NCBI GenBank assembly: GCA_903889905.1
Contig: CAISZI010000031.1
Location: 1-45,649 of the forward strand
Source of the DNA: Candidatus Wirthbacteria bacterium
Lineage (GTDB): Bacteria > Patescibacteriota > CG2-30-54-11
DNA: 45,649 nt
Direction: 5' to 3'
Within the stretch, counting starts at the first letter, position 1; every line of letters starts with the position of its first letter. The notes below the pieces were generated by a model that saw nothing but the letters and a program-made list of their open reading frames with translations, searched no databases and had not been told where the DNA came from. Of this stretch, positions 35,472-42,042 are shown piece by piece. The position numbers and the translations under genes are program-made.

Positions 35472-35484
35472 CAACATGACAATT

Positions 35485-35580
35485 GTTTCATCCCTGCGTC
35501 GGCATTACCCGTACCAGGTACAATGGGTCTTCCGGCATCATCCGGAACTCTCAGCCCGCTTTGGCGAGCTCCCCACTTTA
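35485..35580 (-). promoter_or_regulatory. TPP riboswitch (THI element)
   Basis: Reading leftward the leader contains GGGGAGC, then GGCTGAGAG, GACCCATTGTACCTGGTACG, GGGTAATGCC and GCAGGGATG. These are the conserved blocks of the thiamine pyrophosphate aptamer (CUGAGA, ACCUG, UAAUGCC, AGGGA). When TPP binds, the AGGGATG segment is held in the aptamer and the downstream terminator forms, so the thiamine transporter is switched off. Confidence 0.95.
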
Positions 35581-35586
35581 ATTATT

Positions 35587-40012: not shown

Positions 40013-40876
40013 TTATGACAAATTCTCCGCCAGCAACTCAATATACTCCGGCGTTGTCCCGCAACAGCCCCCAATGATACTAAATCCCTGTTTGGCCCAA
40101 TGTTTGGCATGCTCGAGGTAAGTCTTAGGTGTGATATTCTCATGAAACTTCCACCCCAATCCATCACTCGGCTCGCCGTGGCCATTGGCATAAATACCTT
40201 TGACGCCGCTGTAGTTGGCTACCAGCTTGTCTGCCGCTGCCTGAATCACCAATGGTGGCCGGCAGTTGAGCAAAATCGCCTCAACATCGAACTGCTTGGC
40301 CAGGGCAACGGCGTCTTCAAGTCTTTCTCCACTCAAAAGATCACCCGCGGGATTGGTCACAAAACTCACCCAAACCGGAAGACCGTTTGGCTTGGCAGCT
40401 GCCAGCAGGACTTCAGTTTCGAGTAAGGTATTCATCGTTTCCAAAATGATAAAGTCCAAACCTTCACCCGCAAAATATTCCACCATCTCGCCATGTTCTT
40501 CCTCGAGCTCAGCCCGAGCTGGCACAAGGTTGGGAGAATAACAGTCTTCCACTGTGGTGATGCTGCCGCCCACCAACGCCTTTGGATTGATTTTGTTCCG
40601 CGTTTTGACAGCATGCTCAATCGCCCGTTTGGTTGATTCTTTGGCTAGTGGCCGCTTCCCAATCCGCTGCCAGGTGCGAATGTTGGTGCGAAAAGTGTTG
40701 GTGGTAATAAGATTGGCACCGGCTCGCAGGTAATCAGCATGGATTTCCTGCACCAGTTGTGGCGCCGACAAATTCGCCCCCGCCGACCAGAGCGGAAGAT
40801 TGGTCGGAAAGCCACGGCGTTGCAGCTCAGTGCCAAACGCGCCGGAGAGAATGGTGATGGGCTGATTAGATTTCAT
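40013..40876 (-). CDS. Homocysteine S-methyltransferase
   Basis: A 287-residue enzyme of the zinc-dependent homocysteine methyltransferase family, which methylates homocysteine to methionine from S-methylmethionine or SAM. It begins ILSGAFGTELQRRGFP, has GANLITTNTFRTN near 52-64, and the three zinc cysteines in LNCRPP (about 214) and GGCCGTTP (about 269-276). The Cys pair plus single Cys matches the MHT/MMUM and MetH N-domain type. It overlaps the end of the preceding methyltransferase gene by 11 bases, so they form one translational unit. Confidence 0.92.
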   Translation of the reverse strand: MKSNQPITILSGAFGTELQRRGFPTNLPLWSAGANLSAPQLVQEIHADYLRAGANLITTNTFRTNIRTWQRIGKRPLAKESTKRAIEHAVKTRNKINPKALVGGSITTVEDCYSPNLVPARAELEEEHGEMVEYFAGEGLDFIILETMNTLLETEVLLAAAKPNGLPVWVSFVTNPAGDLLSGERLEDAVALAKQFDVEAILLNCRPPLVIQAAADKLVANYSGVKGIYANGHGEPSDGLGWKFHENITPKTYLEHAKHWAKQGFSIIGGCCGTTPEYIELLAENLS

Positions 40877-41825
40877 TTTGTGCTCCTTGGTTTAATTCTG
40901 GTTTGGTTGTTTTGCGACCGCGAATGACATAAATGGCATGATAGACGGGTTGTTTCTGCTGATTCAAAACATGGGCTTCTGCCCCATTGATTGGTTCCTG
41001 ACCGTCCGGATCATGAAAAAACTCAAATACATTACCTCCGCTTTTTTCGTCATTTGCGAGTGATCCGATATTCGTTCCAGTGTCCTGCTGCACGATCTGA
41101 TGATGCACGATTTCTGGCTCAAAACCAAACTCGAGCATCATCTCCTTCAATTTGGCCTGCGAGGGTCTGCCGCCCAGGTTTAATATTATCTCACCACCCG
41201 GCGGCAAGAAATCCCAGGCCTGAATGAGGAGCGCGGCATTAAGTCCCAGCCCCAATTGGTTCCATTTTCTTACTTGCCCATTAAGTCCAGCAATTTCTAC
41301 TTCATCATAATAATCACCTGTATTGTGGCCATCGAAAAGCTGCCGGTTGGCTGGAAGTTTGACCTGTGGGATACATGCCACCACAACTTCATACGGCGCC
41401 CGACAATTCTGGCGGATCCCGTCAAGCAAACTTCTGGCATAAAGTTCAACTTGTTCAATGTCGGTTTCTGCAACACTGCGACGCAAGTTGTTTTCGGCCA
41501 CAGGCAGAACTTCGGGGTTGATGTCGGTAGCGAGGATGCGACGGGCTTCCAGTCTAGCCAAAAAACCAGTCACCAGGCCAGAACCCATGCCAACCTCAAC
41601 CACATTTTTGCTGCGAATATCTGCCCGAATTTTATGCAAACCACGTAGTAAAGCTCCAGTCCATCGATCCGGGTTCCAAGTGTGTTCATTTAGATACAAC
41701 CAATCTGGTAACAGGTCCTCTACTGTGTCGTCACTCACATCCAACAATACGGGCTCAGCTACACCCAGTTCTAGCTGCTGAATCAAGGCGTCCTGACCTA
41801 TTTTATACCCTCCCTTTTCGCCCAT
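40866..41825 (-). CDS. Methionine S-methyltransferase-like (MMT N-domain) methyltransferase
   Basis: A 319-residue class I SAM methyltransferase. Motif I is VVEVGMGSGLVTGF, motif II ATDINPEVLPVAENNL, and motif IV reads VACIPQVKLP instead of NPPY. Together with LGLGLNAALL and GEIILNLGGRPSQ these match, from memory, the N-terminal half of plant methionine S-methyltransferase (CIPQI, FGLGL, MIFNMGGRPGQ). It would make S-methylmethionine from Met and SAM. The plant enzyme's aminotransferase-like C-terminal half is absent. GGAGG four bases before the ATG selects the start. The downstream overlapping homocysteine methyltransferase could use the product, and a Met-rich attenuator controls the pair. 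Confidence 0.75.
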   Translation of the reverse strand: MGEKGGYKIGQDALIQQLELGVAEPVLLDVSDDTVEDLLPDWLYLNEHTWNPDRWTGALLRGLHKIRADIRSKNVVEVGMGSGLVTGFLARLEARRILATDINPEVLPVAENNLRRSVAETDIEQVELYARSLLDGIRQNCRAPYEVVVACIPQVKLPANRQLFDGHNTGDYYDEVEIAGLNGQVRKWNQLGLGLNAALLIQAWDFLPPGGEIILNLGGRPSQAKLKEMMLEFGFEPEIVHHQIVQQDTGTNIGSLANDEKSGGNVFEFFHDPDGQEPINGAEAHVLNQQKQPVYHAIYVIRGRKTTKPELNQGAQNEI

Positions 41826-41840
41826 TCTTCCTCCTTGATA

Positions 41841-41873
41841 AAACAAAAAAGCCACCTCGCTGGGAGGTGGCTT
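41841..41873 (-). terminator. Attenuator terminator of the methyltransferase operon
   Basis: AAGCCACCTC and GAGGTGGCTT form a 10-bp stem with loop CCAGC, followed leftward by six T. It ends about 15 bases before the operon's first ATG, so it must be bypassed for expression. Its 5' arm contains ACCTCCC, which can pair instead with GGGAGGT at 41901-41907 (the end of the leader peptide gene). Confidence 0.85.
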
Positions 41874-41898
41874 CGATTAAACAAAAAACAAGAAGCGT

Positions 41899-41985
41899 TT
41901 ACCTCCCTGGGCATACCATCATCATGCTCATCATAGTGATTGATGAGGTCATGATTTGGCGACGCATGGAGGAGGAACGAATCAT
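41899..41985 (-). CDS. Methionine-rich leader peptide, 28 residues
   Basis: A short frame starting ATG at 41985, 22 bases after the predicted transcript start. It encodes 28 residues, eight of them Met, including MMSMMM at residues 18-23, and ends PGR-stop. The stop codon TAA overlaps the antiterminator segment. A weak GGG is the only possible Shine-Dalgarno. In the classic attenuation design (as for His, Trp, Thr), ribosome stalling at codons for the scarce amino acid chooses the antiterminator fold. Here the sensed molecule would be charged Met-tRNA. Confidence 0.75.
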   Translation of the reverse strand: MIRSSSMRRQIMTSSITMMSMMMVCPGR

Positions 41986-42013
41986 AACGCTTTACCCGAT
42001 AAAAAGTGGCACG

Positions 42014-42042
42014 ACTATAACGACTTTCGCTGTGGCTGTCAA
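42014..42042 (-). promoter_or_regulatory. Promoter of the methyltransferase operon
   Basis: Leftward -35 TTGACA (42037-42042, perfect), 17-base spacer, -10 TATAGT (42014-42019). The expected transcript start is near 42007. It lies just past the end of the SHMT gene, so the operon is independently transcribed. Confidence 0.85.

Follow-up and report, generated by a model that had tools for sequence, protein, structure and literature searches.

Results

A methionine-rich frame and a terminator precede an mmtN-like gene

The window, by which we mean the whole stretch of 45,649 nucleotides that was analysed, comes from an uncultured bacterium of Patescibacteria type and has a gap on its minus strand between the glyA stop codon (42055) and the ATG of a methyltransferase gene (41825), and this gap holds a promoter, a methionine-rich reading frame and a terminator. 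The elements and the two genes behind them are as follows.

42037..42042, minus strand: −35 hexamer, TTGACA (sequence)
42014..42019, minus strand: −10 hexamer, TATAGT, with a 17-nt spacer to the −35 hexamer (sequence)
41986..41992, minus strand: strand 1, outer part, AAGCGTT; partner AACGCTT at 41893-41899 (sequence, fold)
41970..41975, minus strand: strand 1, inner part, CCTCCT; partner GGGAGG at the end of the leader frame (fold)
41899..41985, minus strand: leader frame MIRSSSMRRQIMTSSITMMSMMMVCPGR, 28 codons plus TAA, eight Met; ATG at 41985, TAA ending at 41899
41917..41934, minus strand: Met run ATGATGAGCATGATGATG (MMSMMM), the proposed stall site
41892..41908, minus strand: strand 2, the 5' half of the antiterminator, AGGGAGGT (41908-41901) plus GCTTC (41896-41892) (P = 0.004)
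41862..41874, minus strand: strand 3, the terminator 5' arm GAAGCCACCTCCC, common to terminator and antiterminator (sequence, fold)
41848..41874, minus strand: intrinsic terminator, a hairpin of strands 3:4 with 11 pairs (−18.3 kcal/mol); TTTTTTGTTT then runs to 41841
41830..41836, minus strand: Shine–Dalgarno sequence of the methyltransferase gene, AAGGAGG (sequence)
40866..41825, minus strand: mmtN-like gene for a putative methionine S-methyltransferase, 319 amino acids, ATG start (PDB 7vvv, E 8e-24; homologue beside HMT in genome G206)
40013..40876, minus strand: homocysteine S-methyltransferase (HMT) gene, 287 amino acids, overlapping mmtN by 11 nt

The glyA gene ends 12 nt upstream of the −35 box. 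The promoter scored 11 out of 12, the best among eight matches within 4.1 kb, and transcription is inferred to start near 42007; a strong Shine–Dalgarno sequence for the leader frame of the window was absent. A short frame with seven internal Met codons was not obtained in any of 5,000 dinucleotide shuffles of the region, and eight Met among 28 codons exceeds what the Met frequency of the window (2.3%) would give (binomial P = 2e-6). The leader RNA folds with a z-score of −4.8. Scanning the window for a short frame enriched in one amino acid and followed by a terminator, with A, R, S, L, G and K excluded, returned this element as the only one of its kind in 45.6 kb.

Strand 2 spans the last leader codons and the stop, and its GGGAGGT (41907-41901) is complementary to ACCTCCC (41868-41862) in the terminator. 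The full antiterminator pairs AGGGAGGT plus GCTTC with GAAGC plus CACCTCCC (−19.5 kcal/mol; P = 0.004 against shuffles). A further hairpin between strands 1 and 2, which includes AAGCGTT/AACGCTT and CCTCCT/GGGAGG, reaches −22.9 kcal/mol (P = 0.01). The promoter, the Met-rich frame, the terminator beside the gene and the frame-end strand able to pair with the terminator 5' arm are thus shown by sequence and comparison. They bear out what a sequence-only reading had claimed for the window. Its TTGACA-17-TATAGT promoter was exactly placed on the minus strand, its 28-codon frame with eight Met including MMSMMM held base for base and beyond shuffle expectation, and its strong terminator before the methyltransferase gene held. 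Its mutually exclusive GGGAGGT/ACCTCCC pairing also held, within an antiterminator longer than it had noted, and its third pair, AAGCGTT/AACGCTT, held as part of the larger 1:2 hairpin.

A second U-rich run, TTGTTTTTTGTTT, lies at 41877-41890 (minus strand), immediately 3' of strand 2, so a weak terminator might also lie at the end of the 1:2 hairpin; loci L203 and L197 have U-rich runs at the equivalent place. Elsewhere in the window, a TPP riboswitch lies at 35474-35585 (minus strand; 59 bits, above the Rfam gathering score).

The downstream genes point to an S-methylmethionine cycle

The match to 7vvv covers residues 50-306 of the 319 residues of the MmtN-like protein, and the GxGxG, PQ and NxGxR motifs are conserved in the alignment. 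We take 7vvv to be MmtN; its PDB title reads just 'SAM-dependent methyltransferase'. The first gene is therefore called MmtN-like by sequence relation, and its activity is inferred. The HMT is the sole PF02574 match in its 2-Mb genome, in which metA was not found. Taken together, the identities of the two genes suggest an S-methylmethionine cycle, and the earlier claim of a methionine-cycle operon held in this form. The pairing of mmtN with HMT has already been reported for CPR bacteria, with methionine S-methylation shown for five CPR MmtN enzymes and an S-methylmethionine cycle predicted (PMC9135737). The Group II MmtN and HMT of that study are of the same enzyme type, and have the same gene neighbour, as those of the window; its relevant sections do not mention a leader or attenuator. 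We found mmtN and HMT in the same order in G206, a distant Patescibacteria genome, and as an operon in that order in G624.

The leader is not tied to mmtN

The sequence-only reading had suggested checking whether the leader is conserved before orthologous methyltransferase operons. This check failed: no Met leader preceded the mmtN homologues of G206, G624, G526 or G631, the first two of which are mmtN–HMT operons. The genomes G526 and G631 are TGA-recoded; their mmtN homologues (L011 and L012) contain 10 and 12 in-frame TGA codons, so TGA is probably read as an amino acid there. Upstream of mmtN in G206, a promoter and a terminator are separated by merely ATG-TGA, without a leader frame, which leaves open the possibility of a different kind of attenuator; this region (L007:2380-2720, minus strand) has a promoter-like TTGACG-17-CATACT, the ATG-TGA and the terminator CTCGCGAATCACGCGAGATTTTTT, and then the mmtN–HMT operon. 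Searches of genome contigs with a single-protein MmtN query, and of viral contigs for HMT, gave no match. The Met leader was thus absent before the mmtN homologues checked and stands before other genes, indicating that conservation applies to the device, not to its place in this operon.

A search for paired Met codons in three genomes of the window's family returned five short frames followed by a T-run: the window leader, two tandem leaders before metA, and two frames without leader context (L034 and L037), of which L034 was rejected as a leader because it is antisense to ftsH. The tandem leaders, MIRTSAAVRLMMSMMMDMVWHGRR and MLSPGSSSCRFMMMPMMHLRI, belong to a sister genus, and each has its own terminator upstream of metA. 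All six residues of MMSMMM recur as an identical run upstream of metA in the sister genome G002. Also within the phylum of the window, the leader on contig 5 of G134 is that of DMXL01000005.1 (Candidatus Peribacteria).

In a partial scan of 85,000 species for paired Met codons followed by a T-run, Met leaders were found before a metB/metC-like gene (cystathionine synthase/lyase-type, Cys/Met PLP) in Flavobacterium terrigena and before metY in Christiangramia and Melioribacter. In the latter two, our reading of the sequence places a second leader, followed by a separate terminator, between the first one and metY. The second Christiangramia leader, MRTTCNQMMSMCMEMMCMCRMECYCQNLRI (L082, reverse strand, ~2725-2820), has 9 Met and 6 Cys among 30 residues and could conceivably respond to cysteine as well as methionine. 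The Flavobacterium and Christiangramia loci also carry SAM-II riboswitches (L077:4006-4066 and L082:6167-6244, both plus strand); these are encoded on the other strand and point away from the Met leaders, so that two different sensors of one pathway are found close together. No Met leader lay upstream of the strong Cys/Met PLP genes in G000 and G002; the open frame preceding them is one that we take to be cysteine synthase or cystathionine beta-synthase. A Desulfobacterales locus (L064) has a Met leader and a strong terminator but lacks 2:3 pairing (P 0.78), and was therefore not counted as supported.

Met leaders precede probable SAM hydrolases in a Patescibacteria family

A search of 380 Patescibacteria genomes led to family f63, in which 21 of 74 genomes carried a supported unit, that is, a Met run, a terminator and 2:3 pairing. 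The reversed control pattern gave one match. Three f63 matches were not counted as supported (L221, with a 2:3 pairing P of 0.29, L223 and L235). Where promoters were found, they were mostly TTGACA-16-TAnnnT with the start codon 6 to 9 nt past the −10 box; the frame therefore begins at or beside the first base of the RNA.

Six f63 units and one unit of family f65 precede related proteins that are probable SAM hydrolases by fold matches (L217:1622-2659, L227:1793-2836, L203:476-1477, L224, L216, L218 and L230). Sequence matches were weak (Pfam SAM_HAT_C, E 0.004 for one member; PDB 2zbu, E 0.25). A first AlphaFold model was useless (pLDDT 37), and a model built with seven sequences reached moderate confidence (pLDDT 63). 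In a fold search with the AlphaFold model, all 26 PDB matches below 1e-3 were SAM hydrolases, SAM hydroxide adenosyltransferases or SAM-dependent chlorinases (SalL-type); 2zbv we take to be a member of the SAM hydrolase/chlorinase superfamily. The model predicts that these proteins probably form a divergent Patescibacteria family of SAM hydrolases that Pfam does not recognise, with their activity inferred. SAM hydrolases release methionine from SAM.

Behind the remaining f63 units lie genes for a methyltransferase-domain protein or for small proteins of 64-99 amino acids, or genes without a recognised family. Because several units stand before unrecognised genes, methionine supply does not explain the class everywhere. 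Small proteins of this size lie directly 3' of Met leaders in L228, L229, L232, L234, L197, L198 and L219, and several start with MVNLLP or MVVL.

Frame-end pairing and geometry recur across units

The search patterns demanded ATGATG runs and a downstream T-run, and these two features were thus selected; 2:3 pairing and gene context were not. For each unit, we asked whether the frame end pairs with the 5' arm of the terminator beyond what dinucleotide shuffles give. This pairing was significant (P < 0.025) in 11 of 13 units (Fisher combined P = 1e-13; 3e-12 after dropping a near-duplicate unit). In f63, 21 of the 24 pattern matches had P < 0.035, with a combined P of 1.5e-22. As units within f63 are related to one another and the two sets have three units in common, the two combined values are not independent and that for f63 overstates the support. 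Among 21 aligned f63 units, a 7-bp 2:3 helix was kept nearly throughout, and two of its pairs have changed on both sides. From one phylum to another, the sequences that pair are different. The RNA sequence varies among units, and the Met run, the stop and the geometry persist. The distance from the stop to the U-run was 44-58 nt in all 12 main units.

When folding was modelled with the ribosome footprint masked, placing the ribosome on the Met run instead of the stop increased the upstream pairing of strand 3 in all 12 units. At equilibrium, the antiterminator gained in five units (at least 0.23 with the ribosome on the first Met pair), not including the window, whose full RNA favoured the terminator (0.93-0.94) even with a stalled ribosome. 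Antitermination in the window must therefore be kinetic, as in trp. The sequestering 1:2 pair, which the sequence-only reading had proposed, lacked support as a general trait (combined P = 0.10 across 11 units).

Proposed mechanism

The window has enriched leader codons, a terminator before the first gene, an exclusive antiterminator, a geometry in which the ribosome would cover strand 2 (by the model) and downstream genes supplying methionine, and so has those features of an attenuator that sequence and modelling can show. The element is likely to be a transcription attenuator that is ribosome-mediated and specific for methionine. Independent units sharing this geometry precede metA and metY, as well as a metB/metC-like gene and a probable SAM hydrolase, which makes methionine attenuation the best reading. 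The earlier claim that ribosomes stalling on Met codons exert the control thus has good comparative support; stalling and readthrough themselves are inferred, without expression, ribosome-profiling or termination data.

When methionine is plentiful, the ribosome would reach the stop codon and cover strand 2, the terminator would form and transcription would end before mmtN–HMT. When charged elongator Met-tRNA is scarce, the ribosome would stall on the Met run and leave strand 2 free, so that the antiterminator would form as strand 3 emerges and the operon would be transcribed. MmtN would then make S-methylmethionine from methionine and SAM, and HMT would remake methionine from homocysteine and S-methylmethionine. 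If the leader of the window went untranslated, the 1:2 hairpin is inferred to hold strand 2 and favour termination. It is possible that methionine shortage, which also limits initiation, blunts the response of the attenuator. A unit without a 1:2 hairpin should, by inference, allow readthrough whether it is initiation that fails or elongation that stalls, a behaviour that would be fitting for methionine.

Alternative explanations

The gap could instead contain an ordinary glyA terminator together with a chance Met-rich frame and a chance promoter. In favour of this, glyA ends just upstream of the −35 box and no other glyA terminator was found in the gap. Against it, such a frame was absent from all 5,000 shuffles, a like design precedes metA, metY and a probable SAM hydrolase, the 2:3 pairing is significant in the window (P 0.004) and overall (1e-13), and the terminator adjoins the Shine–Dalgarno sequence of mmtN, not glyA. 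We consider this explanation very improbable. The same holds for an attenuator that senses another signal, such as copper, oxidants or general translation speed, through a Met-rich peptide. Met clusters can bind Cu(I), and other systems are known in which a leader frame senses copper or translation speed, which lends this idea some plausibility. Yet many of the downstream genes supply methionine, none that is recognised is for copper or stress, and strand 2 sits where a ribosome at the stop codon would cover it.

The least credible of the three is a SAM or methionine riboswitch, or a T-box, with an incidental frame. Methionine genes are often under such RNAs, and the SAM-II riboswitches on the other strand of the Flavobacterium and Christiangramia loci speak for it. 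Against it, no Rfam family, including an aptamer or T-box, matched the leader in any of six loci, and the only Rfam matches in the window were TPP and tRNA. The RNA sequence also differs among units, whereas the Met run, the stop and the geometry persist. Ribosome-mediated methionine attenuation thus remains our preferred reading.

Discussion

The trp, his, leu, ilv, thr and phe attenuators known from Proteobacteria and Actinobacteria (systems cited in PMC2965389 and PMC1262725) likewise have a frame rich in the regulated amino acid. Trp-type attenuators also share with the Met units a terminator before the first gene, an antiterminator that uses the terminator 5' arm and a strand 2 at the frame end. 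By contrast, the Met units sense methionine, their hosts are Patescibacteria, Bacteroidota and Melioribacter, they are often tandem or leaderless, and a 1:2 protector is not general. According to Naville and Gautheret (2010), leader-peptide systems had been demonstrated in no groups other than Proteobacteria and Actinobacteria, to which they added a case from Firmicutes (PMC2965389). In a survey of Actinobacteria, methionine operons showed no conserved RNA structure (PMC1262725). SAM-II riboswitches and T-boxes also provide RNA control of methionine genes, and SAM-II occurs near two Met-leader loci, but the aptamer or T-box is absent at the Met leaders themselves.

A leader peptide, metL, has been proposed before metNIQ in Streptomyces lividans (PMC8079986). 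It resembles the Met units as a proposed Met-dependent leader peptide before a methionine gene, but its sequence, MSTTSDRTPATEATTTPGARCMCRRMCAF, lacks a Met run and no typical terminator was found (PMC8079986). We found no other Met leader in the open-access literature searched; subscription papers were not covered, so this absence is not proof. With this one weak exception, the earlier statement that no well-described Met attenuator was known largely held.

Comparison suggests that Met leaders are a largely unrecognised way of sensing methionine. The evidence tips modestly towards a cross-phylum class of methionine sensors, in Patescibacteria, Bacteroidota, Melioribacter and probably more, whose members are often leaderless or tandem. 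On this interpretation, units without a 1:2 protector would switch on when either initiation or elongation fails, and Patescibacteria would couple Met-tRNA charging to the recovery of methionine from SAM. Such a dual on-switch would be special to methionine because its shortage hits initiation and elongation alike.

Textbook attenuators sense Trp, His, Leu, Ile/Val, Thr or Phe, and methionine genes were thought to rely on SAM riboswitches, T-boxes or MetJ. A Met version common to distant phyla would fill this gap and raises the sharp question of how elongator Met-tRNA is read when the same amino acid starts translation. It also suggests translation-coupled control of transcription in Patescibacteria, whose gene regulation is little known. 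Met leaders can, moreover, hint at gene function, as with the probable SAM hydrolases.
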